Below, piece by piece: positions 1-24,944 of a stretch of 64,000 nt of DNA. Positions within the stretch are counted from its first letter, which is position 1. The number at the start of each line of letters is the position of its first letter. The DNA comes from a virus. The notes below the pieces were generated by a model, which did not search any database, had not been told where the DNA came from, and saw only the letters and a list, made by a program, of their open reading frames with translations. The translations under genes were made by a program, and so were the position numbers. The DNA lies in the IMG/VR virus record IMGVR_UViG_3300045971_000354, positions 62,001-126,000 of that record, one strand, 5' to 3'.

Positions 1-1
1 A

Positions 2-3000
2 GTTAATTCTAGCAGATTTTATGAGCCGCCTACTAATTTAACTAATAATCCGTTAAACGGATCTATTACTGATTTCTCTTTCTCAGAATTAAGCGATCAT
101 GCTAAAACTATTGCTGATAACAACAGTAAATTTATTGGAGTGTTCCCAGGAACCAATAATCTTAGAGATTTAAAAAATATAAGCACGTTTGGTACTCGTT
201 TAGTTAGTCACGATAACCCTATGAGCTTTGCACATTATTTTTTAGGAACTAAAGAAAATAATATTATTGATGCAATTAGAAAAGTATCGAATGATTATAA
301 TCAGTTTAAATCTGTATTACTTAGGAATATTCCTAAGTTTAAAGGAACATATACCGCTGCAGAAACATTAGATAATATTTTAGTATCTTTAAATTCTACT
401 AAAGACACGACAGCATCTTATAACTATTCAGATATGCTTGCTCACGGAAGCAGTAATGTTTCTAGAAAATTTACAGTAACTGATAGTCGAAATGTTCGAT
501 ATAGTCTTGCATCATTATTTGATGACAGCATATTATCTGAACGTGCAGTTTTAGTTTATGTTAATGATTCTATATTAGTTAACAAGCACGATTATCTAAT
601 TGAACAATATACTCCTACGATTACTATTAGCAAACCGTTAGTTAAAGGCGATATAATTACTATTTTAGATTATAGTAGCACAGTAGGTAGTTTTGTACCT
701 TCTACTCCTACTAAACTAGGACTATACCCAAAGTTTGCACCTAAAATATATGTCGACGATACATATATTACTCCGCAGTGTGTAATACAAGGGCATGACG
801 GCAATATTATGATTGCATTTACTTCGGTTGATGCATTTAAAAATAACAACATTGATGATCGAGATTTAGTTATCATGGAATATGAATCTCGTATTTTCAA
901 TAATCTAAAGATACAGTATAATCCTGAGTTATTAGATATTAATTCTATAATTCCGGGTGCATTTAGAAAAACTGATTTTTTACCGAATGAAATTACTAAA
1001 TTTATTACTCCTGATTTCTTACGTTGGGCAAGTTATTTCGGGGTAGATTATCAGACTAAAGTATCTGATGGGCATCCATTTACATATAACTATTCAGGGT
1101 CGTTTGATTCTATCTCTAACGCACCTGTTTCTGGATATTGGAGAAATATTTATAAGCATTTCTTTGACACCGATCGCCCGCATACTCATCCTTGGGAAAT
1201 GCTTGGTTTTACTGAGCAACCTATATGGTGGGAATCTGTATATGGCCCAGCGCCGTATACTTCCGGTAATGGAGTGATGTGGAAAGATCTCGAAGATGGA
1301 CGTATTGCCTCGGGTACTCGAGCAGGAATTGACTCAATGTATGCTCGTCCAGGATTACATAAAATTATTCCAGTAGATGCAAGCGGAGTATTATTGGATC
1401 CAATTGATGCGGGTATTACAGATACTACAAATATTAGTTTAGAGGTGTCGTTATGGCAAGCAGGGGATTGTGCTCCTGCAGAAACTACATGGCGTAGAAG
1501 CAGTTATTGGCCTTTCGTTTGCCAAGTTGTACTAGCACTTGCTAACCCTGCATCATATGCAGCATTATGTTTTGACCCTAGTAGAATGCATAAAAATATT
1601 GCAGGTCAATATAAGTACGGCACATCTGGCATATTTTTAAATCCAACTAACGTTTTATTATTCAGAGACACTGTAAATAACACTAGAGTATTATCTAGTG
1701 GATACAGTGTATTTGTGATTGAGGCAGGTATTGCTAGAAATATAAATTATCTTAATGTTTTAAACTCAGATTTTGCAAATTTAGATTATAACTTGATGGT
1801 TAAGTTAGGAGGTTTTGCAAGTAAAGAAAAATTACAAGTGGGTATTGATTCAGTTGATCCTACTAGCACATATGCTGGCTCGTTAGTGCCAAGTGAAGAT
1901 TATACAATATTTTATAATCAAAGTTCTCCGATTGACAGCATTAATATTTCAGGACTTGTAATTCAAAAAACTGAAAGAGGATGGATGGTAAAAGGTTACG
2001 ATAAGTATCGTCCGTATTTCACGATATTTACACCTTTTACATCTGCATTCGATCAAGCAGAACAGGTAGGAGGAGTTAGTGCACCGTACGTAAATTGGGC
2101 ACCTAACACTACCTATAATATTGGTGATATTGTATTCAACAGTGATCGCTATTATCGTGTGTTGGCAAGACATAACAGTGATACTACTTTTAATAAAGTA
2201 TATTATCAATCATTACCGTATCTGCCAATAGTTGGCGGCGCAAGCGTTCTTCGCCGAACCGTATTTGATACTAGTGAAACTATTATTAATTACGGGTCTG
2301 AATACTATTCTGTTCAAGATGTGGATGACTTAATTATGGGTTACGGTAAGTGGTTAGAATCTAAAGGATTTGTATTTAACGAGTATAATGGCGATTTAGA
2401 TCATGTATTAGACTGGAGTTTTTCCGCTCGTGAATTTTTGTATTGGACTACTCAGAATTGGGCACCTAACTCAATTATTACATTGAGCCCATTTGCAAAT
2501 AAATTAGTATTCCAATCAGATGTTGGAGTAGTTAATAGTATAACTGATTCTTTCTATGAATATAGTTTACTAAAAGCAGACGGCGGCGCTTTCCCTGAAC
2601 ATAATTTTAGTATTGTTCGATTAGATGGCGTGTTCTCGTTAAGTACAGTTAACACTACTGACGGTATATATTTTGCCAGACTCAATCTTGTGCAAAAAGA
2701 GCATGCATTAGTATTGAATAACTTTACAATGTTCAATGACGTTGTTTATGATGTTGAATCAGGATACCGCCAGCGCAGAGTTAAACTAAAAGGATTTAGG
2801 ACAGCTAACTGGAACGGTGATTTCTTTAGTCCTGGTTTTATTTTCGATCAAGCAATAATAAACGATTGGCAAAAATTTACAGACTACGGAGTTGGGGAAG
2901 TTGTTAGATTCTCGGGAAAATACTATTCTGCACCAAAGACTACTCCAGGTACTTCTGCATTTAATATTAATCAATGGATCCCGTTAGGAGATAAACCTAC

Positions 3001-6000
3001 TCCTAGATTGCTTCCTAACTTTGATTATAAGATTAATCAATTTGAAGATTTTTACAGTTTAGATATTGACAATTTTGATGTTGGGCAACAAGCTATGGCC
3101 CAACATTTAACTGGATATACTCCTCGTCCTTATCTGAACTATATTATTGGAGACCCTATTGCTCAATATAAGTTCTATCAAGGATTTATCAGAGATAAAG
3201 GTAGCCGTGCATCTCTAAATAACCTTAGTAAAGTTAGTTTAAACAATTTTCAAACTAGCGTAGACTTTAACGAAGAGTGGGCATTCCGTATAGGGCATTA
3301 TGGTGGATTTAACACTTATCAAGAACTTGAAATTAGTTTAGAATCTAATAAGTTCCTTGAGAATCCACAAATTATTGAATTCGTACCAACAAAACCGATC
3401 GGTACTTCTAATATTGTTTATTACAAAGATGCATCAGATGTAGTGGTTAAACCTGATAACTTTGATATTACATGTGTATTTGTTACAACATCGACTAGTA
3501 ATATTATAAAACTTCCAATAGCCGGATATGTTAGATTTGACGATGTATCTGCTACAGTATATAACCGTTCTAACATCTTAAATATTACTAATAATTCAAC
3601 ATTATTAGAAGGTGATACGTTCTGGATGGGATTTAGACCAGACGGTGAATGGGATGTTTTAAGATTATCTAAACAGCCTTCTGCTATATCAGACCTTGCA
3701 GTTTATATTCCTGCATCCTCGATGATTTTTAGCACATACTCAAGTCACAATCTCGCAGTCGGTGATTTAATTAGCGTTACTAAAATTGATCCCGCAGTTA
3801 ATGCTTGCTATGAAGTAATTGAGATTTTAAGCACTACTGAATTTATAGTCGCGTCGTCTCTTACTTCGTTGCCTAGCATTGCAACTCCTATTAACGGTGC
3901 TCTATTTGTTTTTAGCTCTTCGAGAGTAACTACATTTGACGATATTGCTAGTATTCCTTATTTAGAAAGATGGAAGGTTGGTGAAAAAATATGGGCAGAT
4001 CCTATTGATGAAAATGATACATGGAAAGTTTACGAAAAGAATGATAACTATCAACCAGTAGGTAATAATTTTACTGATGGAACAAATCAACCTGGCCAGA
4101 ATTTCGGGTCAGCAATCGCAGGTAGTTCTGATCATAAATTTATTATATCGTCGGCACCAAACTACATATCATTAACATCGTCCGGCACAGTGTTTGTTTC
4201 ATATCGTGATGTATTAAAAACTGCCCCGGAAATATTTTCATCATATACCCTTAATGACGGGTTAGGCGGAGGGTACTATACTGGAAACACTCCAACATTG
4301 TTTGGAGCTACACTAATTTTTAACCAAACAGCACGTATGGTAATTGCTGGTGCACCGTTAACTTCACAAGTTAGAAGCGTGTATCCGGGAACAGCTATAG
4401 TTAATGTAAACGGAGCCACAAATACTGGAACTGTTAATCAAGGAGTGGTTAAGCTTTCTTTATTAAAAGATGCAAATAGTAATTTTGCAGAATGGGCAGA
4501 TTCTACTGCTACTGTAACTGTAATTTCCGAATCCCCGGCTACATATTTTGGAGCAAGTTTAGCATACTCGGCAACTAACGGAAGATTAATTGTTGGCGCA
4601 CCGGGAAGTAACTCCATTTACGGATATACAGTTTCTGTATCGACTAGTTCAGTTAGCGTAGTTAAGAGTGGAAGTATTGTTGGATATGCCGGCGGATTAA
4701 AGTTCGGAACATCACTTACAGGAAATTTAGATTTAAGTATGTTTGCAGTAACTGATCCGTTGCATGTTTCTACATTGGGATCTTCTGGTACAATCCATGT
4801 TTACTATAATAACTGGCCAATTTCTTCTATCAGTTCTCAATCAATAACAGGCGACGATTTACCTATTCCTATGCAAGCCGGCGACACTTTTGCATCTTCT
4901 ATTAAGATGACTCAAGATGGAAAAATGCTAATTGCTGGTAGTCCATATGCATACGATCCTGTATTCGGCACTAAAACAGGCGTTGTTGATATTTTCATTT
5001 ATAATGGTATTAAATTTGTTCACAGTCAGAGAATTCATGCATCTACAGTTTCGTTAGATACTAAATTTGGTTATCAAGTTGATGTTAACGATAATGTTAA
5101 TTCATTAGTTATAGCAGCACATAGTCAATTTGCTTCGGCTAGTGCTACGTTTGACAAGTATGTTTACAACGATCCATTGCTATCACTAAAGCCGGTTTCT
5201 ACTACTTTTGATAGTAATTCTACTGTTTTTTATAGTAGTGAAAACAATACTGGCGATTCAAACATAGTACATAATTATGTAAAATCACCAACCGGATCTA
5301 AGTGGGTGTATGCTCAGGACCTTACAGTACCTGGAACTACTGCAACTGACTCGTTTGGGTCAGCTATATTTTTAAATGATAATTCTATATATGTCGGAGC
5401 ACCTGGATTTTCTAGTGTAGGAGTTGCAAGCAACGGGCAAATTTCTATATTTGATAAAACAGATATTAATGCGAATAGCTGGAATATATTTAGGCAACAG
5501 GAACCACTTGTTGATCTGGAACCAATTAAGCGTTCTATTACTATTGAAAATATTTCAGAACAGGTGAAAGATTATTTAGAAATAATTGATTCTGTTAAAG
5601 GAAAAATATTAGGAACAGCAGCCGCTGAACTAAAATATATTAGCTCTTATGATCCTGCGTTATATAATATAGGAGTTGACGGAGTTACAGTTAATTCCGA
5701 TGCCAACTGGCTTGATGAACATGTAGGTGAATTATGGTGGGATACTTCTTCTGTAAAATATATTTGGTATGAACAAGGCGATTTAGAATACAGAAAAAAT
5801 AACTGGAATAATATTTTTCCGGGCAGTACAATTGATGTTTATGAATGGGTGCGCTCGTCTTATCTTCCTTCGGAATGGAGCGCAGCAGAAAATACTAATG
5901 CAGGAGCAGCAGCCGGCATTAGTGGCCAACCTAAATTTACAAATGATTCTGTGGTGTCTGTTAAACAGTTTTATAATAGTAACAGCAATTCGTTCTCAAA

Positions 6001-9000
6001 TGTTTATTACTATTGGGTAAAGAATAAAACGACAGTACCTTCTAATATTCCGAATAGAAAGATTGCAGCATCCCAAATCTCTCAAAATATTGCGAATCCT
6101 GTAGGAAGCGGTGTGGAATTTTTAGCTTTTATTAGTCCAACTGCGGTTATTTTGGCTAATTACAAATCCTCTGTGATTACTGATACTGTTAATTTAAATA
6201 TTGGTTTCGATGTAATTAATAATTCTGCCAATCGCCATACAGAATGGGCATTGATGCAAGAGAATGATCCAAATAGTAAACCAAATTGGTTACTTGAAAA
6301 GAAATTAATTGATAGTTTACTAGGCCACGATAGTATTAATAATCCTGTACCTGATCCTGCATTACCTAGCAAATTAAAATACGGGATCGGTATTCGCCCT
6401 CGACAAAGTTTATTTGTTAATCGTAGAGAAGCTTTACGCAATATAATAGAATATTCAAATGGTATTCTACTAAACAATTTAATTACAGGCAAAGCTAATT
6501 TCAGCAATTTGTTAGCAGCTGATCAGCTCCCTGCCGCATCGACATATGATTCAATTGTTGAAGATATCTATATATTAGATTTAATTCCTACAAAGACTTT
6601 AAAAACTGCTAAAGTATCAGCAGTTGTTGATTCTGTTGGAAAAATAACTAATATTATTGTTGATCCGTTAGCCGCAGGTGCAGGTTATTTAACACCGCCG
6701 ACAATTACTATTAGTGATGTAGGCACCGGCGCAGAATTTAACGTAAATATTGATGTTCAAGGTAAGATCACATCAGTTGATGTTATAAAAGGTGGCACCG
6801 GATATTCAACAAGCATTGCACTAACAGTTAGACCATATACTGCAATTGTACGAACCGATTCTACTTCTGGCGGAAAATGGGCTAAGTATGAATGGGATGA
6901 TGTTGCATCCACATGGACAAAAACCAGAACTCAGAATTTTGATACTTCGATATATTGGAAATATATCGATTGGGCTTCGGCGGATTATAGTAACTTTACT
7001 ATCATAGAAGCTACAGTTCCATCACCATACGATTTATCTGAACTATTTTATCTTTCTACTGGTGCGTATGTTAAAGTGCAGAACGGCGGTGATGGTAGAT
7101 ATTTAATATTAAGCAAGACTTCGGGTACAGGCGGAACATTTGACAGCGATTGGAACATTGTCTATTCAGAAAACGGCACAATACAATTCTTAGATTCTAT
7201 TTGGAATTCAACTAACACTGTTTTTTCGTGGGATCAGATTGTTGGATTTGATGTTACTAGCTATGATCAAACTCCTGATGCTGAAATAAAGTATATTCTA
7301 GATGCATTAAAGGATGATATATTTGTTAATGAGTTTAAAGGATATTGGAATAAATTATTCTTAAAGGCAGTTCGATACGCATTAAGCGAACAGAAGTCTC
7401 TTGACTGGGCATTTAAAACAACATTTATTAGTGTAGTTAACAGTGCCGGCAGCTTAGATCAACGTCATACCTATAAGTTACAAAATGCTTCTTACTATGA
7501 AGATTTCTTAAATGAAATTAAACCGTATCATACAAAGATTCGTAAGTTTACAGAAGTATATACAGCTACTGATTTATCTCACAGCTTTAACACTGATTTT
7601 GATTTGCCGTCATTCTATGATAAACGCACTCTATCATTTAACACACCTTCGGCATATGAATTAACTCAATACCCTTGGAAAGCATGGAATGATAATCACG
7701 GATACGGTGTCTCAGTTATTAATATTTCAAACAATGGTGGTGGGTATACATCAACACCTATAGTAACTATTATTCCTGCTGTTGGTGATACTGGTGCCGG
7801 TGCAGAAGCAATTGCTTTTATATCATTAGGTACTGTAAATCGTATTATTGTTACTAACCCGGGAAGGGGTTATACAATAACACCTACTATAAAGATCAGT
7901 GGCGGCGGAAGCACTACTTTAAATTCTGCACAAGCTTATGCACAGCTCGGCGGAAGTCCAGTTCGTGCAAATAAAGTAAGAATGAAATTTGATCGAGTTT
8001 CAACAACTAGAGAAATTGGCAATCAGTATTTCTCACAAGTGTTTGTTGGTAATGGTATTGACTCTAATTTTAACTTAAAGTGGCTACCTCTTAACGATAA
8101 AACAACTATTTCGTTGACTAAAAATGGCATTCTACAGTTAAGTACTGATTATTCATTACTATTCTATAGTACGGCATACAAAACTCAATACGGACGAGCA
8201 AATAATTCTTACCTTAAGAAGTATGCGAGTTTGCAAATGTCGTATATTCCTGAGATTGGGGATGTTATTGAAATCACTTATCCTAAGAGTTTAGAACTAT
8301 ACACCGCAGTTGACAGAGTAGAAGATTACTATGCACCTAACGCAGGGATGCCTGGAAAAGAAATTGCACAAGTAATGAAAGGTGCAGAATATCCGGGAGT
8401 TTCGGTAGATACACTTCCACTTAACTTTGCCCAAGGTTGGTCGGGTACTGAAAGCGGCTGGGATAGTGCAGCATGGGATAATGCAGGATTAGTAGAAGGC
8501 TATTTGTCGTTTGCGACAACTGCATCGAGCCTTGCTCCTTTAACAATTCCGTTTGTTATTAATTCGGGTACACAGTTGAATGTCTATATTCAAGATATTA
8601 GCACAAACACATCTGTTGCACGAAGAATTGATGGCAGCTCTACCTCATCCTTAGTTCAAACAATTTTTGGTATTGGATCAGGTGCAATTGATAGAATTGA
8701 AGTTCCGGTTCCTGGTGCAGGATACGATGCAGCATTTCTTGATGTATTTGTAGCACCTCCGACTTCGCCGACTGGTAGAATTGCAAAAATTACTCCGAAT
8801 GTTTCAACCGGATCGATTGTTAGTTTTACTATTACCGATCAAGGAAGTGGATATCTTGTTGCTCCTGTAATTACAATTATTGAAAAACTAACTACAGGGC
8901 ATTCTACTAGCACAGTTACTATTCCTGCATTTGCTAATGCGATTATTAAGTCTGAATTTACTGCAACAAATACAACAGGTACAATTTCGTCGATACAAAT

Positions 9001-11308
9001 TCCTAGTAGTGTACTTACTGCTAGTACTTCATTAATTGTATTCCGCGAGTCAACTAGTGACGGTACAACGACTCCTACCGATGCCGACAGTTTAGATGCA
9101 TTAGTTTCCGGCGGCACATGGGATAAACTTACTGGTAAACTTAGTGGAGCATTAGGAGTTACTCCGGGTGATATAATTGTTGACGGCGATTCGTTCTTGT
9201 CAGCAGTTAGCAGCTATGCTCCTGAAGAATTTGTTCCAGGGCAAATTCAAGAAGCATTTGGAATTAGTGTTTATACAAAACCTCCAGTTGCTGCTCCGTT
9301 AATTGTTAATAAAAAGTATTGGGTAGACGGAACTATGTTAACTTATAAGTTAGGTACTACTCCGAGTAATCGAGATTCTGTTATTGCCACTTTCAATGGT
9401 CAAAAATTAGTTTCTAGTAGATACACTATAGACTTTGATGCTAATACTTTTACCTTTACTAATATAAATCCCGGTACCGGATGGTTAAGTTTAACTAGTA
9501 TGGGAGCAGGCACTGACTCTTTACTAAACTATACTACTGCGGTAAACGCAACTAGTTCTACAATAATTACTACCCCGGTTGCATATTCGGATGTTAAGAG
9601 TTCCTATGTAACTGTAAACGGTGTATCTATTTTAGAAAATGTAGACTATACACTAACAAGCGATAAATCTAGAGCTAAGTTTACTATAACTGCACCCGGC
9701 GTCATTCAGACATACTTGTTTAGTAAACCGTTTAAGTCATTCAGTGAAGTAACTGAGCAAATTATTATTTCAACAGGTACATCTACAACTTATGTATTAA
9801 CTCAACCTCCAGGGACAGTCGGCCCGTTCCATAACCAAGTAATTATTACAAAGAACGGATTAAGAATGTTACCTCCGGTGACTACTTATTATGAAGTTAC
9901 TAACGGACAACGGTCTTTTGATATTAGTTCGACAATTGTTTTTGATAGTGGAAAAGTTGATCTCCGACATTTAGAAGTTTATGTAAACGGAAAACGATCA
10001 AACACATTTGACTTTTGGAATTTTAATCAATCTGCAAATAAAGTTGTGTTTAAAAATGCAGCCTTAGTTGACGGTGATGTTATTGCAATTGTAGTAAAAC
10101 GAGATAACGAATACTTAATTGAGAATAATCAGTTAGAATTAATTTCTCCGTCTGCACCTAACGATGAATATCATATTACAGCGTTTACCAATCACGATCC
10201 TGATTTTATCAGAACAGAACGGTATACCGGTCGCGCTAGTAATCAATATGTTATGCAACGAAAAATAGTCGATGTTTCGTATGTATGGGTTTCTTACAAC
10301 GGTACCCCGTTGACTGCTAGCTTAGATTATAGTATTGATGCTACGAATAATGCAGTTCGAATCAGGGAAGGGATTTTTACAAGTCCCGACGATATTGTAA
10401 TTATAACAAGCTTTGCTGACTATATTCCACTTGATGTAACTGGATATAAAATCTTTAGAGATATGTTAGGTCGTACTCATTATAAGAGACTGAGTGCTCC
10501 TGATACTACTGAACTATTATTACCTTTGTCAATGGATGATGCTACTATCACTGTTAAGGACAGCAGTGTCTTAACCCCGGGACAACCTGCAAGAAATATA
10601 CCCGGAGTTGTTATGATCGATAAAGAACGTATTGAATTCTTTACAATCTCAGGGAATGTGCTCGGTCAATTGAGAAGAAGCACATTAGGAACTGCACCTA
10701 AGCCTGTGTATGATATTGGTACTTTAGTAATGGATCACGGAACAACCCAAAATGTTCCAGTTAACGAAGTTGTACAAAAGTTTGTAGTTACTGCTACTAC
10801 AACTGCTTCAGTTGTTGCAGGATATGTTTTAGATGGGATAACATTTGCTGCTAACACCCCGTATACTGATCAAGTTGAAGTACGATATGCAGGCCGCATG
10901 TTAATGAAACCGTTTATTGATCCTACAAATATTACAGTAACATACAATAACATAGCATATGATAGCGATCCTGCTCTAGATATTTTAGTAAATCCCGGAT
11001 TTGCAATCAATGCAGGCGGCGTACTGACCATTTCAACCAACAGCAACTTTATTCTTACAGAAGGTGCAAGATTAGAGGTTACTAAACGAATGTCTAATAT
11101 TTGGTACGATAGTCCAGCTTCAACGCTTACCCTTGCTAAAAATACAACTGCACAGGCTAAATTCTTAGCTGAAAAACCAGCAGCTTTACCGGCTGCAATT
11201 ATTTCATCAGCTCCGATTAATGTAACTGCTACTAGTGCAGTCTTGTATACAGAAACTGGCAGCATATTAACTGATGAAAATGGTAACCCATTAGAGGGCG
11301 GTATATAA
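2..11308 (+). CDS. Giant tail/baseplate-associated structural protein, 5' end outside window
   Basis: The reading frame is open from base 2, so the N-terminus lies upstream. A GTG at 140 is the first start-like codon in the window but is probably internal. At least 3,768 codons are visible. Seven FG-GAP-type repeats (FG.....DG..I.GAP pattern) lie near bases 4103, 4301, 4548, 4703, 4888, 5065 and 5354, the number expected of an integrin-alpha-like seven-bladed beta-propeller. Two carbohydrate-binding-module 5/12-like motifs (TYNIGDIVF...YYRV near 2110; YGVGEVVRFSGKYY near 2890) and three pairs of G.GY...P.(I/V)TI repeats (near 6678/6790, 7736/7862, 8714/8843) follow. The C-terminal part has the GT.....G......D...QNVP pattern seen in T4-like aquatic phage virion proteins. 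It heads the late tail module. The structural role is inferred from domains and context; the exact position in the virion is unknown. Confidence 0.85.
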   Translation, partial: VNSSRFYEPPTNLTNNPLNGSITDFSFSELSDHAKTIADNNSKFIGVFPGTNNLRDLKNISTFGTRLVSHDNPMSFAHYFLGTKENNIIDAIRKVSNDYNQFKSVLLRNIPKFKGTYTAAETLDNILVSLNSTKDTTASYNYSDMLAHGSSNVSRKFTVTDSRNVRYSLASLFDDSILSERAVLVYVNDSILVNKHDYLIEQYTPTITISKPLVKGDIITILDYSSTVGSFVPSTPTKLGLYPKFAPKIYVDDTYITPQCVIQGHDGNIMIAFTSVDAFKNNNIDDRDLVIMEYESRIFNNLKIQYNPELLDINSIIPGAFRKTDFLPNEITKFITPDFLRWASYFGVDYQTKVSDGHPFTYNYSGSFDSISNAPVSGYWRNIYKHFFDTDRPHTHPWEMLGFTEQPIWWESVYGPAPYTSGNGVMWKDLEDGRIASGTRAGIDSMYARPGLHKIIPVDASGVLLDPIDAGITDTTNISLEVSLWQAGDCAPAETTWRRSSYWPFVCQVVLALANPASYAALCFDPSRMHKNIAGQYKYGTSGIFLNPTNVLLFRDTVNNTRVLSSGYSVFVIEAGIARNINYLNVLNSDFANLDYNLMVKLGGFASKEKLQVGIDSVDPTSTYAGSLVPSEDYTIFYNQSSPIDSINISGLVIQKTERGWMVKGYDKYRPYFTIFTPFTSAFDQAEQVGGVSAPYVNWAPNTTYNIGDIVFNSDRYYRVLARHNSDTTFNKVYYQSLPYLPIVGGASVLRRTVFDTSETIINYGSEYYSVQDVDDLIMGYGKWLESKGFVFNEYNGDLDHVLDWSFSAREFLYWTTQNWAPNSIITLSPFANKLVFQSDVGVVNSITDSFYEYSLLKADGGAFPEHNFSIVRLDGVFSLSTVNTTDGIYFARLNLVQKEHALVLNNFTMFNDVVYDVESGYRQRRVKLKGFRTANWNGDFFSPGFIFDQAIINDWQKFTDYGVGEVVRFSGKYYSAPKTTPGTSAFNINQWIPLGDKPTPRLLPNFDYKINQFEDFYSLDIDNFDVGQQAMAQHLTGYTPRPYLNYIIGDPIAQYKFYQGFIRDKGSRASLNNLSKVSLNNFQTSVDFNEEWAFRIGHYGGFNTYQELEISLESNKFLENPQIIEFVPTKPIGTSNIVYYKDASDVVVKPDNFDITCVFVTTSTSNIIKLPIAGYVRFDDVSATVYNRSNILNITNNSTLLEGDTFWMGFRPDGEWDVLRLSKQPSAISDLAVYIPASSMIFSTYSSHNLAVGDLISVTKIDPAVNACYEVIEILSTTEFIVASSLTSLPSIATPINGALFVFSSSRVTTFDDIASIPYLERWKVGEKIWADPIDENDTWKVYEKNDNYQPVGNNFTDGTNQPGQNFGSAIAGSSDHKFIISSAPNYISLTSSGTVFVSYRDVLKTAPEIFSSYTLNDGLGGGYYTGNTPTLFGATLIFNQTARMVIAGAPLTSQVRSVYPGTAIVNVNGATNTGTVNQGVVKLSLLKDANSNFAEWADSTATVTVISESPATYFGASLAYSATNGRLIVGAPGSNSIYGYTVSVSTSSVSVVKSGSIVGYAGGLKFGTSLTGNLDLSMFAVTDPLHVSTLGSSGTIHVYYNNWPISSISSQSITGDDLPIPMQAGDTFASSIKMTQDGKMLIAGSPYAYDPVFGTKTGVVDIFIYNGIKFVHSQRIHASTVSLDTKFGYQVDVNDNVNSLVIAAHSQFASASATFDKYVYNDPLLSLKPVSTTFDSNSTVFYSSENNTGDSNIVHNYVKSPTGSKWVYAQDLTVPGTTATDSFGSAIFLNDNSIYVGAPGFSSVGVASNGQISIFDKTDINANSWNIFRQQEPLVDLEPIKRSITIENISEQVKDYLEIIDSVKGKILGTAAAELKYISSYDPALYNIGVDGVTVNSDANWLDEHVGELWWDTSSVKYIWYEQGDLEYRKNNWNNIFPGSTIDVYEWVRSSYLPSEWSAAENTNAGAAAGISGQPKFTNDSVVSVKQFYNSNSNSFSNVYYYWVKNKTTVPSNIPNRKIAASQISQNIANPVGSGVEFLAFISPTAVILANYKSSVITDTVNLNIGFDVINNSANRHTEWALMQENDPNSKPNWLLEKKLIDSLLGHDSINNPVPDPALPSKLKYGIGIRPRQSLFVNRREALRNIIEYSNGILLNNLITGKANFSNLLAADQLPAASTYDSIVEDIYILDLIPTKTLKTAKVSAVVDSVGKITNIIVDPLAAGAGYLTPPTITISDVGTGAEFNVNIDVQGKITSVDVIKGGTGYSTSIALTVRPYTAIVRTDSTSGGKWAKYEWDDVASTWTKTRTQNFDTSIYWKYIDWASADYSNFTIIEATVPSPYDLSELFYLSTGAYVKVQNGGDGRYLILSKTSGTGGTFDSDWNIVYSENGTIQFLDSIWNSTNTVFSWDQIVGFDVTSYDQTPDAEIKYILDALKDDIFVNEFKGYWNKLFLKAVRYALSEQKSLDWAFKTTFISVVNSAGSLDQRHTYKLQNASYYEDFLNEIKPYHTKIRKFTEVYTATDLSHSFNTDFDLPSFYDKRTLSFNTPSAYELTQYPWKAWNDNHGYGVSVINISNNGGGYTSTPIVTIIPAVGDTGAGAEAIAFISLGTVNRIIVTNPGRGYTITPTIKISGGGSTTLNSAQAYAQLGGSPVRANKVRMKFDRVSTTREIGNQYFSQVFVGNGIDSNFNLKWLPLNDKTTISLTKNGILQLSTDYSLLFYSTAYKTQYGRANNSYLKKYASLQMSYIPEIGDVIEITYPKSLELYTAVDRVEDYYAPNAGMPGKEIAQVMKGAEYPGVSVDTLPLNFAQGWSGTESGWDSAAWDNAGLVEGYLSFATTASSLAPLTIPFVINSGTQLNVYIQDISTNTSVARRIDGSSTSSLVQTIFGIGSGAIDRIEVPVPGAGYDAAFLDVFVAPPTSPTGRIAKITPNVSTGSIVSFTITDQGSGYLVAPVITIIEKLTTGHSTSTVTIPAFANAIIKSEFTATNTTGTISSIQIPSSVLTASTSLIVFRESTSDGTTTPTDADSLDALVSGGTWDKLTGKLSGALGVTPGDIIVDGDSFLSAVSSYAPEEFVPGQIQEAFGISVYTKPPVAAPLIVNKKYWVDGTMLTYKLGTTPSNRDSVIATFNGQKLVSSRYTIDFDANTFTFTNINPGTGWLSLTSMGAGTDSLLNYTTAVNATSSTIITTPVAYSDVKSSYVTVNGVSILENVDYTLTSDKSRAKFTITAPGVIQTYLFSKPFKSFSEVTEQIIISTGTSTTYVLTQPPGTVGPFHNQVIITKNGLRMLPPVTTYYEVTNGQRSFDISSTIVFDSGKVDLRHLEVYVNGKRSNTFDFWNFNQSANKVVFKNAALVDGDVIAIVVKRDNEYLIENNQLELISPSAPNDEYHITAFTNHDPDFIRTERYTGRASNQYVMQRKIVDVSYVWVSYNGTPLTASLDYSIDATNNAVRIREGIFTSPDDIVIITSFADYIPLDVTGYKIFRDMLGRTHYKRLSAPDTTELLLPLSMDDATITVKDSSVLTPGQPARNIPGVVMIDKERIEFFTISGNVLGQLRRSTLGTAPKPVYDIGTLVMDHGTTQNVPVNEVVQKFVVTATTTASVVAGYVLDGITFAANTPYTDQVEVRYAGRMLMKPFIDPTNITVTYNNIAYDSDPALDILVNPGFAINAGGVLTISTNSNFILTEGARLEVTKRMSNIWYDSPASTLTLAKNTTAQAKFLAEKPAALPAAIISSAPINVTATSAVLYTETGSILTDENGNPLEGGI

Positions 11309-11401: not shown

Positions 11402-12562
11402 ATGACAAAAGTAACACAACTACCAATAGCAACAACTATTACAAATTACGGAGTATTCGTTATCGTTGATGGCGGAATTACTAAACAAATTGGTTGGCAG
11501 ACTTTAAAATCGGGAGCATTCAAAGGCGATACCGGAATACAAGGACCGATCGGTAATACAGGAACACAGGGTATTCAAGGGCCAATCGGAATAACCGGAA
11601 CAGCCGCTACTGTTGTAGTAGGCACTGTAGTTGCGAGTACTGTGACAACAAGTGTTACTGATGTCGGAACACCGGGTAGTGCAATACTTAATTTTGTGTT
11701 ACAGCAAGGTATTCAAGGTATTCAAGGTATTCAAGGACCGATCGGCAATACAGGAACACAAGGTATTCAAGGACCTATCGGATCAACTGGGACATTAGCA
11801 GATCTTCAAATTGGTATAGTTTCTACCGGAACTACTGCTACTGTTGGTATTTCTACTTCAAGCACAATTACAGCGGTATTTACGACATCAACTACTGCTG
11901 CAACAACAGCATCGTCGACGTTAACTACCATTATATTGACAACATCTTCGTCAATATCAACATCTTCGTCGACTGCAACTGTTTTTACTTTAATTACTAC
12001 ATCGACTACTATTTCAACATCTTCGCTAACTGCAACTATTGTTACGACAATTTCTACGGCAACTACTAGATACGGTACATTTCTTAATTTTGTATTACCT
12101 CCGACCCAGTCAACTGTTGGCATTGTTTCACTTACTACCGCTACTACTAGCACAGCAGGTGTGGTTAAAATTGGATCAGGAATTGATGTTTCGTCGAGCG
12201 GCACAATTAGTGTAACTCCGTCTAATGTGGTGTTTACTGGCGGAACTGTTAATAATAGTTCTACATTTACTAATAATCTATCAGTGTACGGAACATTTAC
12301 AGCGGCAACTTTATTAGTTGGCTCAACTGGCATTGGCACAGTGCAATCAACAAACGATCTTTCATTAAAAGCAGCAGGCATTATTACTACTAACGCACCA
12401 TTTGTGTTACCGAGTTATAACTCAACTACAACATTGGCAGCACTTGTTGGCATTCCTGTAGGTGCAACTGTTTTCGTTACAAATGCGCCAGGCGGTGCGC
12501 AACCTTGTTATTTCGACGGAGTACATTGGTATACATTTAACGGCAGAGTTCAGGTTCTATAA
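11402..12562 (+). CDS. Collagen-like tail fiber protein
   Basis: 386 residues. The N-terminal part has two blocks of collagen-like G-X-Y triplets (residues about 40-65 and 100-130; units such as GPIGNTGTQGIQGPIG), which are expected to form a triple-helical shaft. Between and after them lies a long Ser/Thr-rich low-complexity stretch (residues about 140-225). The C-terminal about 50 residues (VGATVFVTNAPGG....YFDGVHWYTF) resemble the terminal knob found on many phage fibers. It is followed by the protease gene with a one-base TAATG stop/start overlap, so the two are translationally coupled. A host-contacting fiber or decoration role is inferred from collagen repeats and position; the receptor is unknown. 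Confidence 0.8.
   Translation: MTKVTQLPIATTITNYGVFVIVDGGITKQIGWQTLKSGAFKGDTGIQGPIGNTGTQGIQGPIGITGTAATVVVGTVVASTVTTSVTDVGTPGSAILNFVLQQGIQGIQGIQGPIGNTGTQGIQGPIGSTGTLADLQIGIVSTGTTATVGISTSSTITAVFTTSTTAATTASSTLTTIILTTSSSISTSSSTATVFTLITTSTTISTSSLTATIVTTISTATTRYGTFLNFVLPPTQSTVGIVSLTTATTSTAGVVKIGSGIDVSSSGTISVTPSNVVFTGGTVNNSSTFTNNLSVYGTFTAATLLVGSTGIGTVQSTNDLSLKAAGIITTNAPFVLPSYNSTTTLAALVGIPVGATVFVTNAPGGAQPCYFDGVHWYTFNGRVQVL
11708..11734 (+). repeat. Three tandem 9-bp repeats encoding Gly-Ile-Gln
   Basis: GGTATTCAA occurs three times head to tail, encoding collagen triplets G-I-Q. Perfect nucleotide identity suggests recent slippage, a cheap way to change fiber length. Confidence 0.8.
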
Positions 12563-14783: not shown

Positions 14784-16022
14784 ATGAGTTATACAATAAA
14801 ATTTTCTGATCCTAATACTTCGGCAAAGCCTCCGATTGTTATACTTGATAATTCAAAAGATCAGAGCTCTACCAGCCTAACATTTCTTGGAAAAAATTAT
14901 CCAGGGTATGGGCAAATTGTTGCGGAAAATTTTCTGTGGTTATTAGAACACTTTGCCGGCCCCATTCCGGGACCAGTTAATCCTGTTCAAGGACAACTTT
15001 GGTATAACAACACCGACGGCAAATTATTAGTTAACGACGGTTCTTCGTGGTCGCCGGTAAACAGATTATTTCAACAATCAGTTGACCCGACAACTATTAG
15101 CTCAAATGTTAAACTCGGTGATGTTTGGGTTGACACTTCTAATCCAAACGGAATTCAATTAAAAATTTACAACGGGACTATTGGAAAACCTTGGTCTCAA
15201 ATAGGAAACAACGATCCTAATACCGGCAGCTTCCCGTATTTAGGAATATTAGATACTGACAATGCTATTCACACTGTTATTAAAGATACAATAGAAAATA
15301 GCGGCACTGTAATTGCAATTTACGCCAAGGAGGATTTTGTCCCTCAATCTCCTGATTTCGGGTTTAGCCAAATTAGAAAAGGAATTAACATTCCTGCTGA
15401 TGCTAGATTAAACGGAGCCTCGCAATTTGCATATTCATTAAAATCAACTCCTACTTCAGAACCTATCCTTACTAATTGTATTCTTAGAAACGATATTAAC
15501 CAGAGAATAAGTGGAACACTAAGTATCGGAGTTGATACTAACTCGTTACAGATTGGTTATAACAATTCGTTTATTTTACAAACAGTAAATCAGTACAATT
15601 CAAATTTTGTTAATACCTACCAATCTACTGCTACTTCACAGATTAGCGGAAAATTTACATTTAATTTACAAGTAGCTGGGAAATCTGCAGAACTACTTAC
15701 TGTCGATGGGGCAACTCAAACTGTCACAATAGGTGATGTTGGTAAAAAAATTAATGGCAATTTAAATGTTACTGGAGACGTTAGTTTTATTCCGGCAGGT
15801 TCGATTATGCCGTTCGCAGGGTTAGTTCCTCCAACAGGCTGGTTAATTTGTGACGGGTCGACTACAAGTACAATTGTTCGCCCAGCATTGTTCGGAGCAA
15901 TTCAATATAATTATGGTGGAACAGGATCAATTTTTAATCTTCCTAATCTTACAAACAAATTGTTTGCTACTAACGCAGTTAACACATCAACTTCGGCAAT
16001 AAAATATATTATAAGATACTAA
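14784..16022 (+). CDS. Tail fiber protein with tail-collar domain
   Basis: 412 residues. The N-terminal about 90 residues carry the domain shared by this and the next three genes: a YTI start, LGKNYPGYG, then ENFLWLLEHFAGP and NPVQGQLWYN. The C-terminal about 75 residues form a phage tail-collar domain: IPAGSIMPFAGLVPPTGWLICDG, ALFGAI..NYGG, FNLPNLTN, as in short-tail-fiber family proteins. The middle is beta-rich and repetitive. Likely function is a trimeric host-recognition fiber; the shared N-terminus is presumably the virion attachment part. It is the shortest of the four paralogs and the only one with the collar ending. Confidence 0.85.
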   Translation: MSYTIKFSDPNTSAKPPIVILDNSKDQSSTSLTFLGKNYPGYGQIVAENFLWLLEHFAGPIPGPVNPVQGQLWYNNTDGKLLVNDGSSWSPVNRLFQQSVDPTTISSNVKLGDVWVDTSNPNGIQLKIYNGTIGKPWSQIGNNDPNTGSFPYLGILDTDNAIHTVIKDTIENSGTVIAIYAKEDFVPQSPDFGFSQIRKGINIPADARLNGASQFAYSLKSTPTSEPILTNCILRNDINQRISGTLSIGVDTNSLQIGYNNSFILQTVNQYNSNFVNTYQSTATSQISGKFTFNLQVAGKSAELLTVDGATQTVTIGDVGKKINGNLNVTGDVSFIPAGSIMPFAGLVPPTGWLICDGSTTSTIVRPALFGAIQYNYGGTGSIFNLPNLTNKLFATNAVNTSTSAIKYIIRY

Positions 16023-16025
16023 ATC

Positions 16026-17975
16026 ATGAGTTATACATTAAAACTAACTAACGGTACGATTCTGCTTACACTTGCAGATCAACATTCTGACCGCATAACT
16101 ACCAGCCTAACAATGATAGGTAAGAATGTAAATGCCTATGGTACAGATCTTAATGATAACTTTATACATTTGTTAGAGAATTTTTCTAGTGTTAATCGTC
16201 CTATTAATCCATTAGAAGGTCAATTGTGGTTTAATGCTACTGATCAAAGAATTTATGTATATGCAAAGTCTCCATCTTCTTCAAATGATTTTAAACCAGT
16301 CGGCGGCCCAATTATAGGAAGCACATTGCCTTATAATGTTTCTACTGGAGACTTCTGGTTTGATACTTCTGCTAAACAACTTAAATTTTTAGCAAGTCCT
16401 GGTAATTTGTTTACCATAGGGCCAGCGTTCGATGCAGCAGCTGGAAAATCTGGATTGATTGTTGAAACTACTGCTACTACCGTTGGCCCAGCCTCGATAT
16501 TAGAGTTATATATTGATGGTCAAGTTCTTGGAGTAGTTAGTACTGATCAATATACTTTTTCCGTTCCGTACAACGGTATTACTACAGCAACCGCTGGCAT
16601 TAATCTTATTCCTGGGTATAAATTTGTTGGAACTGCAACATTTGCCGAAACGCTAATTTCACCTACTACCGGAGCATTGCTAACTGCTGATTCGTTTTTC
16701 CGTAAAGATACATACCCGATCTATACACAAGGGTTTACCGTTGCAAATGATTTTCCTGGGGTTATAATTGGATCTGGAACTGATATTCAATTATGCAATA
16801 CCGGTTCGAGTATTTTAGCAACATCGCCAGTTGCAACATTAAAAATTAACGGGTTGGGCCAAGATTTTAATTTAGACATTAATCCATTAACAACTAGCAC
16901 TAGACAATCCGCAGTGTATATTGATTCGTCGAATTCTAGAATTGGAGTTTTTAATACTAAGCCTTTGTACCCTGTTGACATTACTGGCAATGTTAATATT
17001 AACGGAAATCTTATTGTTACCGGGTCGTCGACTTATATTACTAGTGCTGATTTAAGAATAGAATCGAAAGTAGTAGAATTATCATCGGGCACTATTACTA
17101 ATGACGGTATTGCAAATGGCGGCGGCGTTAAGTTATTCGGAGATAGTGTTAAATCTGTGTTGTGGAGTCTTAGCAATAATGCATGGACTTCTAACGTTAA
17201 TTTTGATATTGACTCTACTAGCACTTATAAAATCGGCGGAGTTAGTGTAGTCCAAGCTGGCGGGCTAAGTTCGTCTGTTACTGCATCTAGTTTAACATCA
17301 GTTGGAAATTTAGTCAACGGTACTACTATTGGTCAAATAACATTTTCGACCTCTACGATTGGAACAACAAATTTTGTTCCATTATATCTCGGTAATCAAA
17401 ACACTGCAAATATTGATTTCGGCGGAAATACTCTTCAAAATGTCACTGCACCTCCGATGGGTGCTGGCCCATCGTTTGCACAGTATTCTAACTATGCTGC
17501 TACTAAGGGATATGTTGACGGTGCTATTTCGAATGTTCTTGGAACACAAAAAGGTCAATTCTCCACAACAATTGATGTGACAGGTCATGCACAGTCTCTT
17601 GCAGATCCGGAGTTAGATATTTACGTTCAGGCAATGCTTAACATGCTATACCCGTCATCGTCATCTGATCCTAGTGGAAATTATGGTATTTACGATGGCG
17701 CACGGGCACGAGTAATTGTAACTAGATATACATCTTACGGAGTTCCTTCAGTAGCTAGTGATTTTATTAATTTCGGCAATCCTGTGGTCCTAAACAACAC
17801 TAGTACCGAAGTTATTGCGTATTCTCAATTTATTCGAGCAGTAACTACTCTTCCTGTTACTCCGATCGGAATTAACAGAGGTATCAAACAATATATACTA
17901 TCAAGCGGTATTTGGATTGCGTATATTGTAACTGGTACAGGCAGTAATATTATCTACACCGACGGAACCTGGTAA
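16026..17975 (+). CDS. Tail fiber protein, paralog 2
   Basis: 649 residues. It has the shared N-terminal domain (MSYTLKLTNG, MIGKNVNAYG, NFIHLLENFSS, NPLEGQLWFN). A middle section containing SIL..TLKINGLGQDFNLDI and VDITGNVNINGNLIVTGSS resembles the beta-helical shaft segments of phage fibers. The C-terminal about 150 residues (from GTQKGQFSTTIDVTG) are unlike those of the other paralogs, with no collar and no YADLAE domain. It starts 3 bases after the previous stop. Host-binding specificity probably resides in this unique C-terminus. Confidence 0.8.
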   Translation: MSYTLKLTNGTILLTLADQHSDRITTSLTMIGKNVNAYGTDLNDNFIHLLENFSSVNRPINPLEGQLWFNATDQRIYVYAKSPSSSNDFKPVGGPIIGSTLPYNVSTGDFWFDTSAKQLKFLASPGNLFTIGPAFDAAAGKSGLIVETTATTVGPASILELYIDGQVLGVVSTDQYTFSVPYNGITTATAGINLIPGYKFVGTATFAETLISPTTGALLTADSFFRKDTYPIYTQGFTVANDFPGVIIGSGTDIQLCNTGSSILATSPVATLKINGLGQDFNLDINPLTTSTRQSAVYIDSSNSRIGVFNTKPLYPVDITGNVNINGNLIVTGSSTYITSADLRIESKVVELSSGTITNDGIANGGGVKLFGDSVKSVLWSLSNNAWTSNVNFDIDSTSTYKIGGVSVVQAGGLSSSVTASSLTSVGNLVNGTTIGQITFSTSTIGTTNFVPLYLGNQNTANIDFGGNTLQNVTAPPMGAGPSFAQYSNYAATKGYVDGAISNVLGTQKGQFSTTIDVTGHAQSLADPELDIYVQAMLNMLYPSSSSDPSGNYGIYDGARARVIVTRYTSYGVPSVASDFINFGNPVVLNNTSTEVIAYSQFIRAVTTLPVTPIGINRGIKQYILSSGIWIAYIVTGTGSNIIYTDGTW

Positions 17976-17984
17976 GGAAAAATA

Positions 17985-20060
17985 ATGGCATATACTTTAA
18001 ACAAATCTAATGGCGGCACTTTAGTAGTAGTTGATGACGGTACAGTTTCTAGTGGTTTCAGCATTACATTTGTTGGGAAGAATGCTAGTAATTATGGCAG
18101 AATACAAAATGAAAATTTAGTTTATCTGTTAGAAAATTTTGCTAAGCCTGTACAACCATTAAACCCTATCCAGGGGCAAATTTGGTTTAATTCTAATCCA
18201 GTTGTAAATAGACCTGCTATATTTGACGGCACAAACTGGAGACCTCTTGCGGTTCTTCAGTATAGTAACGCTCCTACTGATACGTTAATTAATGCAGGGT
18301 CTAACCCGATAATTGATTTTGCAGCATCGACTCCTGGTGATTTGTGGATTAACAAAACCACAAATCAATTGAGTATTATTACTAATACCGGTCCTTTGTT
18401 AGTTGGCCCGGAGTCGGTTTTTGGGTTTAGCACCACTAAGATGTCATCTACTACAATGGCAGATGTAACAAATAGAAATCTGCCAGTAATTAATTTAACA
18501 ATTGATGGCGAAGTTCTCGGAGTAATTTCAAGCACACCGTTTGCGTCTAATGTTTCCGGATTCCCTAACGTAGTTAGAGGATTAACATTTAAAGATAATA
18601 CACTATCATTAACAGTGCCGTCGATTACTAGTACTTCTATTAACAGTACAATTTTAAATGTCTCAACATTAACCGCTGTTCAAATTACTGCATCAATAAC
18701 TTCAAGTACTAACGTTTTTAGTAATGTTGTCGATGCAAGCACTGTTAATGCAAGCACTGTTAATGCAAGTACCGCAATAATTACTCCCCAACTAACAGCG
18801 GCATCCGCGTTACCTGCATCACTTAACGGAGTTTGGAATCTAACTACAGGATCTACAATTTTACCGAGTATTAATTTAGGTAACAATTTAGGATCTGTTT
18901 CTAATCGATTCGGCACTATATTTTCAGGTGTTGGTGATTTTAACGCAGTATACGATAACGGATTTAGAGTCGTTACTGAAGGCACTATTGCAGGAAAGGG
19001 AGTTACTTCCTTATCCGGAACAGCAAATCAAATTACAGTAAGCACCAGTACTGGGGTTGTTCAACTTAGTTTACCTGGAGCAGTTTCTCTTAACACATTA
19101 AGTGTGTTACAACTATTTGTCAACGGATCACCTGTTGTGACTGAAGGCACTATTGCAGGAAAGGGAGTTACTTCCTTATCCGGTACAGCAAATCAAATCA
19201 CAGTTAGTGCTAGTACTGGAGTTGTTCAACTTAGTTTACCGAATACTATTAACGCCGGAGTGATTTCTGGGTCTCAGCTGTTCGATAACGGTTCAAGAGT
19301 AGTGACTCAAGCAACAATTGGACAACTTGGAGTATCATCGTTAACTGGTACAGCAAATCAAATTACAGTAAGCACTAGTACCGGAGGTGTTCAACTTAGC
19401 TTACCTGGTACTATTAATGCTGGGCTAATTTTTGCTAACGGATTATACGATTCTGGCGCTAGAGTAATTAGTACAGCTAATATTGGTACTTATGGAGCAG
19501 CATCTATTTCCGGCACCGCAGGACGCCTAGCTGTTTCAAATGTTAATGGGGCATATACTCTTACGTTGCCGGACAGCGTTTCGATTCCGACTATTTCTGT
19601 TTCCACATTACTAGCTCAAGGAACACAAAGCACTATATCCGGAAAATGGGTATTAGGTGCAAGTTCTTCACTACAAGCAACATATGCTGACTTAGCAGAA
19701 AACTACGAGTCAGATAAGCATTATATACCGGGTACTGTATTAGTATTTGCAGGTGATAAAGAAGTTACCGCATGTACTATTAAAACTGATAGGCGTGTCG
19801 CAGGGGTTGTTAGCTCTAATCCTGCATATTTAATGAATGTCGATTGTCCCGGTATTGCAGTAGCAGTTGCGTTACAAGGGAGAGTTCCTGTTAATGTTAT
19901 TGGTAAGATTGTTAAGGGCGATTTGCTTGTTACATCTGATCTTAAAGGATTTGCAGAATCAAATAATTCTCCTTGTATGGGAGCAGTTATTGGAAAAGCG
20001 TTATCTGACAAGGATTTTATCGGACCAGGAGTCGTGGAAGTTGCCATTGGAAGATTGTAA
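17985..20060 (+). CDS. Tail fiber protein, paralog 3, with repeats and YADLAE C-terminal domain
   Basis: 691 residues. The shared N-terminal domain is followed by about four repeats of roughly 55-60 residues built around TSLSGTANQITVS.STG.VQLSLP (bases about 18980-19600). The C-terminal about 125 residues begin with YADLAENYESDKHYIPGTVL and continue with VAGVVSSNPAY and GKIVKGDLLVTS. Such terminal domains are found on many phage fibers, and some relatives act as self-cleaving intramolecular chaperones; whether this one cleaves itself is not evident. Paralog 4 carries the same ending. GGAAAAATA precedes the ATG. Host-recognition fiber is inferred. Confidence 0.8.
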   Translation: MAYTLNKSNGGTLVVVDDGTVSSGFSITFVGKNASNYGRIQNENLVYLLENFAKPVQPLNPIQGQIWFNSNPVVNRPAIFDGTNWRPLAVLQYSNAPTDTLINAGSNPIIDFAASTPGDLWINKTTNQLSIITNTGPLLVGPESVFGFSTTKMSSTTMADVTNRNLPVINLTIDGEVLGVISSTPFASNVSGFPNVVRGLTFKDNTLSLTVPSITSTSINSTILNVSTLTAVQITASITSSTNVFSNVVDASTVNASTVNASTAIITPQLTAASALPASLNGVWNLTTGSTILPSINLGNNLGSVSNRFGTIFSGVGDFNAVYDNGFRVVTEGTIAGKGVTSLSGTANQITVSTSTGVVQLSLPGAVSLNTLSVLQLFVNGSPVVTEGTIAGKGVTSLSGTANQITVSASTGVVQLSLPNTINAGVISGSQLFDNGSRVVTQATIGQLGVSSLTGTANQITVSTSTGGVQLSLPGTINAGLIFANGLYDSGARVISTANIGTYGAASISGTAGRLAVSNVNGAYTLTLPDSVSIPTISVSTLLAQGTQSTISGKWVLGASSSLQATYADLAENYESDKHYIPGTVLVFAGDKEVTACTIKTDRRVAGVVSSNPAYLMNVDCPGIAVAVALQGRVPVNVIGKIVKGDLLVTSDLKGFAESNNSPCMGAVIGKALSDKDFIGPGVVEVAIGRL
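18735..18764 (+). repeat. Two perfect tandem 15-bp repeats plus a degenerate third
   Basis: GCAAGCACTGTTAAT occurs twice in tandem, then a degraded third copy begins at 18765. The repeats encode A-S-T-V-N units in paralog 3. They keep the frame and would change shaft length by five residues per step. Confidence 0.85.
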
Positions 20061-20068
20061 GATCTACC

Positions 20069-20076
20069 GATAAATA
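20069..20076 (+). promoter_or_regulatory. Candidate late promoter box (GATAAATA) for fiber paralog 4
   Basis: GATAAATA lies 19 bases before the ATG at 20095, in the only sizeable gap between the fiber genes. The predicted start would be near 20082. The motif and spacing fit a T4-type late promoter that gives the last fiber gene its own transcript. Confidence 0.5.
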
Positions 20077-20094
20077 CACAAACTTGAAAATAAT

Positions 20095-23603: not shown

Positions 23604-24866
23604 TTATTTATAATATGCAGTCTGGCCGAATGGCGCAGTTATGGATTCGGTTCCATGAATAATAAACAGCGTTTCGCAGTAATCTTCATCTCCCCAACTT
23701 CCGCAAGGATATCCGTCCGTAAACATAATGAAACGCTTTGGATTAATATCGTTATTTTTCATAAACTCCCAGTTAGCTTCGAAACTAGTTCCTCCGCCGC
23801 CCTTCGGTTCGTAACTCAAAATATCATCGGCAGTATCACCGGTAAATTTTGCATATTGATATACGCTTGTATCAAAACACCACAGATCTAATTTGAAGTC
23901 GGTATATTCGTCCATAATACCTTTAACTTCGGAGAGCATATCACGTGCCATTGCATTTGAAATACTTCCACTCATATCCAGGCATACTGATACATCAATT
24001 GTATCTTCATTCATCATTCCGGGCAGTATTGCTCCGCTCATTTGACTTTTACGGTTCGGACGACTGAAGCTAAAGTTGCTTTTGACAATACTTTGGATGT
24101 TCATGCGTAGCATCTCACGCCAATCCATTTTTGGCTCAGTAAAGTCTTTAATCATACGTGCAACACCTGCCGGTAGATTGCCAGCACCTGCAGATTGCGC
24201 AGCACTAACCATCGCCTCTTTGATTTCGTCACGAATTTGTTTGCGTTCTTCAGCAGTTAGTTTCGGACGTCCTTTACCTTTTCCAGCACCTTCACCGTCT
24301 TGGTCACTGTCGCCTTCACTGTCGTCGCCATCTTCCATATGCTCGTCAAGCAGTTCGCCCAACTTACTCATATCAATCTTATCGGCCTTTTCATACAGGT
24401 CGTCGTAAATTTGTTCATACGACCAGTCGCGATATTTTGGATCGTAATAGACTTTCATAAAGTCTGGAAATTCTCCGATCTTTTCGTCCTTACAAATTTG
24501 ATTAACGGCAAAGTCGGCAGCAATATTAGAAAGTACTGGATCGCGGCTCTCACGACGTCCCATATGATCGAATACGTTATGTAGAACTTCGTGCCCGAAG
24601 CCGAACTCTGCAACTTTTGGGCTCATTTTATCAACAAAGCCAACATTGTAAAAGAAGTTTCGCCCGTCAGTTGCAATAGTCGGGCACCAATCACTTGCAT
24701 CCACAAGTGTTAACCGCGTTGCCATATTGCCAAAGAACGGATGACGAAGCAACAATCCAATTCGGGCAGTTACAAGCTTTTCAATAACTTTATTCTTTTC
24801 AGCTTGCGTAAATACTCGGTCTTTATCGACCTTGCCTACACGCTCTTGCTTCATTACTTTAGACAT
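23604..24866 (-). CDS. VWA-domain protein with metallopeptidase-like N-terminus (MoxR partner)
   Basis: 420 residues. The N-terminal domain has a zinc-protease-like motif GHEVLHNVFDH (H92, E93, H96), as in the DUF2201 putative metallopeptidase family. A highly acidic linker follows (residues about 175-195). The C-terminal domain is von Willebrand A type, with a MIDAS motif CLDMSGS (D297, S299/S301) and a later FTDGYP. This domain pair is known from bacterial MoxR-associated VWA proteins, which act with an AAA+ ATPase in assembling or remodelling protein complexes. The ATPase gene lies directly upstream in transcription order (24947-26026). A consensus sigma-70 promoter drives this gene separately. 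What it remodels is unknown. Confidence 0.85.
   Translation of the reverse strand: MSKVMKQERVGKVDKDRVFTQAEKNKVIEKLVTARIGLLLRHPFFGNMATRLTLVDASDWCPTIATDGRNFFYNVGFVDKMSPKVAEFGFGHEVLHNVFDHMGRRESRDPVLSNIAADFAVNQICKDEKIGEFPDFMKVYYDPKYRDWSYEQIYDDLYEKADKIDMSKLGELLDEHMEDGDDSEGDSDQDGEGAGKGKGRPKLTAEERKQIRDEIKEAMVSAAQSAGAGNLPAGVARMIKDFTEPKMDWREMLRMNIQSIVKSNFSFSRPNRKSQMSGAILPGMMNEDTIDVSVCLDMSGSISNAMARDMLSEVKGIMDEYTDFKLDLWCFDTSVYQYAKFTGDTADDILSYEPKGGGGTSFEANWEFMKNNDINPKRFIMFTDGYPCGSWGDEDYCETLFIIHGTESITAPFGQTAYYK
23605..23612 (-). promoter_or_regulatory. T4-type late promoter box (TATAAATA)
   Basis: An exact T4 late consensus on the minus strand, inside the last codons of the VWA gene and just upstream of the gene starting at 23591. 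It would uncouple late expression of the three small genes from the early VWA gene. Confidence 0.65.
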
Positions 24867-24891
24867 TTATATTCCTTGTTGATGTATTACT

Positions 24892-24920
24892 ATTATACAG
24901 CATTATTTTGGTTTTGTCAA
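24892..24920 (-). promoter_or_regulatory. Perfect sigma-70 consensus promoter
   Basis: On the minus strand TTGACA (24915-24920), a 17-base spacer and TATAAT (24892-24897): a 12/12 match to the bacterial housekeeping consensus. The VWA gene start (24866) follows after about 25 bases. Host RNA polymerase should use it early. Confidence 0.9.
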
Positions 24921-24926
24921 GTAAAC

Positions 24927-24944
24927 AAGGGCCTTTCGGCCCTT
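24927..24944 (-). terminator. Hairpin terminator after the MoxR gene
   Basis: Minus strand AAGGGCC, GAAA tetraloop, GGCCCTT: a perfect 7-bp stem 3 bases after the moxR stop (24947). The following T tract is weak (GTTTACTT), so termination may be partial. Confidence 0.7.

Follow-up and report, generated by a model that had tools for sequence, protein, structure and literature searches.

FG-GAP β-propellers form the ligand-binding heads of animal integrins, in which Ca2+ sites of the type DxDxDGxxD lie in the A-B loops of the later blades, the ligand face is the one carrying the B-C loops and, in some members, an alpha-I domain is inserted in a propeller loop. In T4-like phages, gene 7 comes after genes 25 and 6, and we know of no FG-GAP propeller in its product, gp7. 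In the baseplate pins this protein is a monomeric component of the wedge, and one of its domains swivels when the baseplate rearranges (PMC3004832). Propellers are already known from phages, as are FG-GAP proteins from viruses. The C-terminal seven-bladed propeller of PhiKZ gp131 (PDB 4GBF) sits at the baseplate periphery and has been proposed to bind or degrade receptors, and the receptor-binding protein of Staphylococcus phage phi11 carries a baseplate propeller with a presumed GlcNAc site (PMC4901313). Here we describe a phage locus with a seven-bladed FG-GAP propeller of the integrin-alpha type, set between the conserved N- and C-terminal parts of a giant protein that looks like a component of the baseplate.

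The window analysed here, 64,000 nucleotides long, comprises bases 62001-126000 of a 143,463-base IMG/VR virus record. The propeller-bearing open reading frame occupies 1-11308 on the + strand, is read from base 2 and is open at the window edge on its 5' side; it supplies the C-terminal 3768 of the 4427 residues of the complete protein, whose start codon (L008:17025) precedes the window by 1976 bases and which ends at 11308. We assign it as a giant virion structural protein of the baseplate, at the position of gp7, on the strength of its homologues and of a match to phrog_10938 'virion structural protein' (E 5.6e-237, a similarity over the conserved body). Homologues were found in 86 phage records at roughly 24-30% identity, nearly all of them from giant phages, including PA5oct, RaK2, K64-1, Atu_ph07, SCTP-2, Munch and Serratia phage BF. 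Upstream of the propeller is a CBM_5_12 (chitin-binding type 3) module (2093-2185, +; Pfam 28.4 bits, cut-off 26.2), and downstream is a conserved flank (ITIENISEQVKDYLEIIDSVKGKI...YDPALYN; 5525-5668, +) common to the PA5oct, RaK2 and Atu_ph07 homologues. Searches with the flanks matched phage structural protein and no integrin or membrane receptor. The C-terminal part also contains GYxxxPxVTI-type repeats (profile A2 positions 339-397, near residues 2210-2270 of the visible protein), which weakly resemble the Dpo31/Dpo36 tailspike in a profile search (E 0.003).

A first-pass annotation made from the DNA letters had placed seven FG-GAP-type units at 4100-5440, spaced about 50-100 residues apart. 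Seven in-frame units are indeed present: their core motifs fall at residues 1367-1804 of the visible protein, they extend from 4100 to about 5497 when the last strands are included, so that the proposed end was right to within about 60 bases, and successive units are about 51-97 residues apart. A unit hidden Markov model trained on relatives, with the window sequence left out, scored units 1-7 at 11.6, -0.4, 17.0, 0.3, 8.0, 6.7 and 13.7 bits, all in register, and found no FG-GAP core beyond these seven in the 3768 visible residues. Because the best of 200 shuffled controls reached 2.7 bits, five of the units are individually above chance; units 2 and 4 draw their support from register, family alignment and fold. 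The Pfam model FG-GAP_2 (PF14312) passed its cut-off of 23 when run on the sub-region (25.4-25.8 bits) and scored 11.7 bits with the whole 3768-residue protein as query. The same annotation had proposed looking for FG-GAP in related phage tail proteins, and 18/18 aligned relatives match FG-GAP_2 at E 1 or better (best 3.2e-13).

The seven blades, all on the + strand and all with their strands in a structural model, are preceded by an N-terminal β-hairpin (IWAD...WKVYEK; 3986-4057, +; model strands E6-9, E19-23 and E27-29), in which W8, W18, V20 and K23 are invariant across 58 sequences. Blade 1 (FGSAIAG..FIISSAP..GTVFVSY) spans 4100-4246, and blade 2, which has a long B-C loop (PLTSQV...NQ), spans 4301-4519. 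Blade 3 (FGASLAYS..LIVGAPG) lies at 4547-4684, followed by blade 4 (FGTSLTG..MFAVTDP..GTIHVYY; 4703-4849), where pLDDT is mostly >90, and blade 5 (FASSIKM..MLIAGSP..GVVDIFIY; 4889-5038). Blade 6 (5066-5323) is interrupted by a long B-C loop modelled at low confidence (5123-5263, +; pLDDT 40-47), and in blade 7 (FGSAIFL..IYVGAPG..GQISIF..WNIFRQ; 5354-5497) Pfam FG-GAP_2 is over its cut-off.

An integrin-like fold with seven blades had likewise been predicted from the letters, with structure prediction named as the means of checking it, and profile matches, an AlphaFold2 model and Foldseek now bear this out. The model is a propeller (pLDDT 83.7, pTM 0.86) of 28 strands, arranged as seven four-stranded A-B-C-D blades plus the N-terminal hairpin, and an earlier model from 18 sequences agrees with it; closure of the ring is read from the strands and the fold matches. 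When a profile of 58 relatives was compared with solved structures, integrin alpha chains alone were found at E <0.01 (best 2.2e-17), and a smaller profile recovered integrins alone from the PDB at E <1e-3. The top solved structures in Foldseek are the headpieces of integrins alphaV and alpha5 (E 7.6e-14 to 2e-12; TM 0.47-0.65, by target). As AlphaFold2 training included integrins, the fold and profile evidence are partly dependent, and both agree with the unit count.

Whether calcium loops are kept had been left unclear, and here the answer is negative. The A-B loops are 3-5 residues long in the window and 2-14 residues long across 59 relatives, and no calcium motif occurs within the blades of any of 59 propellers; a Ca-like motif in 5/59 relatives falls at position 10 only, in the hairpin and outside the blades. 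Short A-B loops and the lack of a blade motif indicate that calcium loops were lost or never present. Loop length varies most on the B-C side (mean s.d. 5.9 residues, maximum 108 residues; A-B 0.8, C-D and D-A 1.8). Residue variability in the B-C and D-A loops is not above that in the A-B and C-D loops, so length alone distinguishes the two faces. The blade 6 loop carries a conserved TTFDxxxTxF motif in which D414 is invariant and F413, T418 and F420 are conserved in at least 90% of 58 sequences; a scan covering whole proteins found it in 59/63 proteins of the propeller clade.

In a sister branch, the propeller site is mostly 660-1250 residues long, and in sister lineages CBM_5_12 modules occur with FG-GAP units inside it, over the Pfam cut-off in L190 (E 2.4e-8), L186 and L191 and as weaker matches in L138, L142 and L157. 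In L138 and L186 the module directly follows the GAP-like motif of blade 2, as judged by eye. Such modules lie inside the propeller in sister lineages and not in that of the window, whose CBM_5_12 sits elsewhere in the protein. Two further insertions were seen among relatives: about 130 residues in the blade 3 A-B loop of L010 (13481-15430) and about 90 residues in the blade 7 B-C loop of L019 (13457-15508), the latter without a Pfam match. A candidate assignment of the L019 segment to DUF4214 was dropped, as Pfam gives no such match.

The proposal that the propeller lies inside a phage tail or baseplate protein is upheld by gene order. Upstream of the giant gene are a gp5-like hub/lysozyme gene, a gp25-like wedge gene (phrog_43, E 1.2e-17) and a gp6-like wedge gene, and directly 3' of it is a tail fibre-like gene (11402-12562, +; phrog_5073 tail fiber, E 1.5e-11). 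A tail collar/fibre-like gene follows (14784-16022, +; phrog_9116, 19618 and 523) and then three fibre-like genes (16026-17975, 17985-20060 and 20095-22350, +), whose N-termini share phrog_14394/15511 with the preceding gene; a module common to four adjacent fibre-like genes (14784-22350) suggests that one kind of attachment point serves several fibres. PA5oct, Atu_ph07, RaK2, Munch and Phosso all show the same succession of small wedge protein, large wedge protein and giant protein. In its record the PA5oct homologue gp355 is marked ESI-MS/MS, a virion detection by mass spectrometry. Profile searches of the PDB with the N- and C-terminal parts gave no similarity to T4 gp7 or another baseplate protein, so that 'gp7 position' refers to gene order, on which the baseplate location rests. 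Elsewhere in the window, a DUF2201 metallopeptidase/VWA-like gene (23604-26026, -) adjoins an AAA (MoxR-like) ATPase gene, and a 1885-residue protein without a Pfam match is encoded at 47343-53000 (-).

Scans of viral contigs found 218 loci with propeller relatives, of which 80 were kept, and the conserved body at 588 loci at least. A scan with the propeller of the window alone returned no relatives; these came from flank and alignment queries. Among 50,697 phage records we found no member of the propeller lineage. In a FastTree tree of 125 homologue bodies with a midpoint root, all rows with the propeller fall into a single clade of 97 uncultured phages with a support of 100, and in the three rows of this clade without a propeller match the contig stops short of the site or inside it. 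The propeller is absent from the other 28/125, among them all named phages tested, PA5oct, RaK2, Atu_ph07 and SCTP-2 included. A single gain is the simplest account of this tree, although midpoint rooting leaves loss on the other side formally possible.

What such a propeller, inferred in the first-pass annotation to bind a ligand, might do can be considered in the light of these comparisons. The giant protein would sit in the baseplate wedge in several copies and hold the propeller there as a non-enzymatic platform, whose length-variable B-C loops may attach to the host envelope, most likely through generic recognition of glycans; such binding would help the baseplate to seat on the cell once the fibres have bound. 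To this reading of the propeller as a host-envelope-binding platform of the baseplate we give about an even chance. The evidence supports a platform in the baseplate that is conserved, non-enzymatic and probably exposed. Loop-length variation together with the carbohydrate-binding modules of some relatives favours binding, and the modules inside sister-lineage propellers are the main pointer to use at the envelope. The known baseplate propellers of the phi11 receptor-binding protein and PhiKZ gp131 point the same way (PMC4901313). Some phage propellers are enzymes, as in endosialidases (PMC4901313), and lactonases appear among the lower-ranked fold matches, but it would surprise us greatly if this one were an enzyme domain, such as a glycan-cleaving one, instead of a binder: the top matches by both profile and fold are the non-enzymatic integrins, and most invariant positions are G, P, W and F residues with structural roles in the FG-GAP core, among which no cluster of catalytic residues stands out.

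How the propeller has evolved bears on two further explanations. At longer range, no other large block of the giant protein is as poorly conserved as the propeller: the window and its near relative L009 share 33-44% identity there, compared with about 60-75% in most flanking blocks. Fast divergence at this range and loops variable in length would suit a receptor-binding domain proper that determines host range and evolves under arms-race selection, as would the apparent recent exchange of a propeller by recombination, or else assembly chimerism, in the pair L082/L087, in which the propellers are nearly identical (dS 0.07) and the flanks are not (dS 0.5-0.7). Yet a host-range determinant seems decidedly improbable: propeller identity tracks N-flank identity over 2628 pairs (r 0.84; N- versus C-flank, r 0.85) with a single clear outlier (flank 0.81, propeller 0.51), it is similar to flank identity in close pairs, and dN/dS is low in close pairs (0.04-0.24, like the flanks, in pairs whose choice by propeller similarity is a bias). 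Vertical inheritance and purifying selection thus point to a conserved platform for adhesion or docking more than to a host-range determinant exchanged between phages. Slow evolution of this kind, unlike that of a fast-changing receptor-binding determinant, agrees as well with a role in docking a further tail protein as with envelope binding, and a structural role is also plausible. By analogy with the contact between integrin alpha propellers and their beta subunit, the propeller may be an internal assembly module, with a face that binds a tail protein such as a fibre base or a neighbouring wedge, and make no contact with the host. Its retention throughout the lineage, while in an all-against-all comparison the neighbouring fibre genes were gained, lost or strongly diverged between relatives more than the propeller was, would be expected of such a module, and the conserved TTFDxxxTxF motif suggests one fixed contact. 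We consider this a possible but tentative alternative, as interfaces are usually conserved, whereas the propeller diverges more than its flanks, is lacking from related phages and tolerates large inserts and carbohydrate-binding modules.

A broader and distinctly speculative picture, which as a whole we think unlikely, is that each baseplate wedge of the lineage carries a calcium-free propeller resembling an integrin head, that its loops serve as sockets for glycan-binding modules and that sensing or gripping of the host surface ahead of sheath contraction is a task of the baseplate itself as well as of the fibres. In the open-access literature we found no paper on FG-GAP together with phage and baseplate or with jumbo phage (subscription journals being outside the scope of this search), and a propeller embedded in a baseplate protein thus seems to be undescribed there. 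That a widespread lineage of uncultured giant phages has a fixed, apparently once-acquired propeller in its baseplate protein offers a clear target for studies of host contact.

Set beside the systems described so far, the giant protein shares with T4 gp7 its gene position, after gp25 and gp6 and before the fibre genes, and its character as a multi-domain wedge protein (PMC3004832), but has no detectable sequence similarity to it and is of another size (119 kDa for T4 gp7 versus 4427 residues here). The other phrog_10938 proteins, PA5oct gp355, RaK2 ORF070, Atu_ph07 gp180 and Munch 262, have homologous N- and C-terminal parts and the same gene order, but other or almost no sequence at the propeller site. 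FG-GAP_2 repeats or the same predicted fold recur in Phosso gp108, C48C1 CDS0129, an Atu_ph07 'hemagglutinin', a virion protein of S-TIM5 and giant viruses of eukaryotes, but in other genes and contexts, not in the gp7-position protein. Sinorhizobium phage Phosso gp108 (L113, record 57900-68978), annotated only as hypothetical, is about 3.7 kaa long; the 3454 residues read contain 24 FG-GAP_2 stretches (560 bits), sufficient to build several propellers in tandem. A 1480-residue hypothetical protein of phage C48C1 (Kyanoviridae; L112:5859-10301) has seven such stretches and lies a few kilobases from a baseplate hub/lysozyme gene. PhiKZ, a giant phage with a contractile tail, likewise has a seven-bladed propeller on its baseplate, that of gp131, but gp131 is a separate protein from another phage group and gave no profile match at E 1 or better. 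The phi11 propeller differs in being five-bladed and part of a trimeric receptor-binding protein with stem and tower, and neither profile nor fold search found it. The closest counterpart is the integrin alpha chain: although the phage propeller is without Ca2+ loops and is embedded in the middle of a giant structural protein that has no thigh or calf domains, membrane helix or beta partner chain, it has the same seven FG-GAP blades, finds in integrins its best profile and fold match and, like them, takes domain insertions in its loops.
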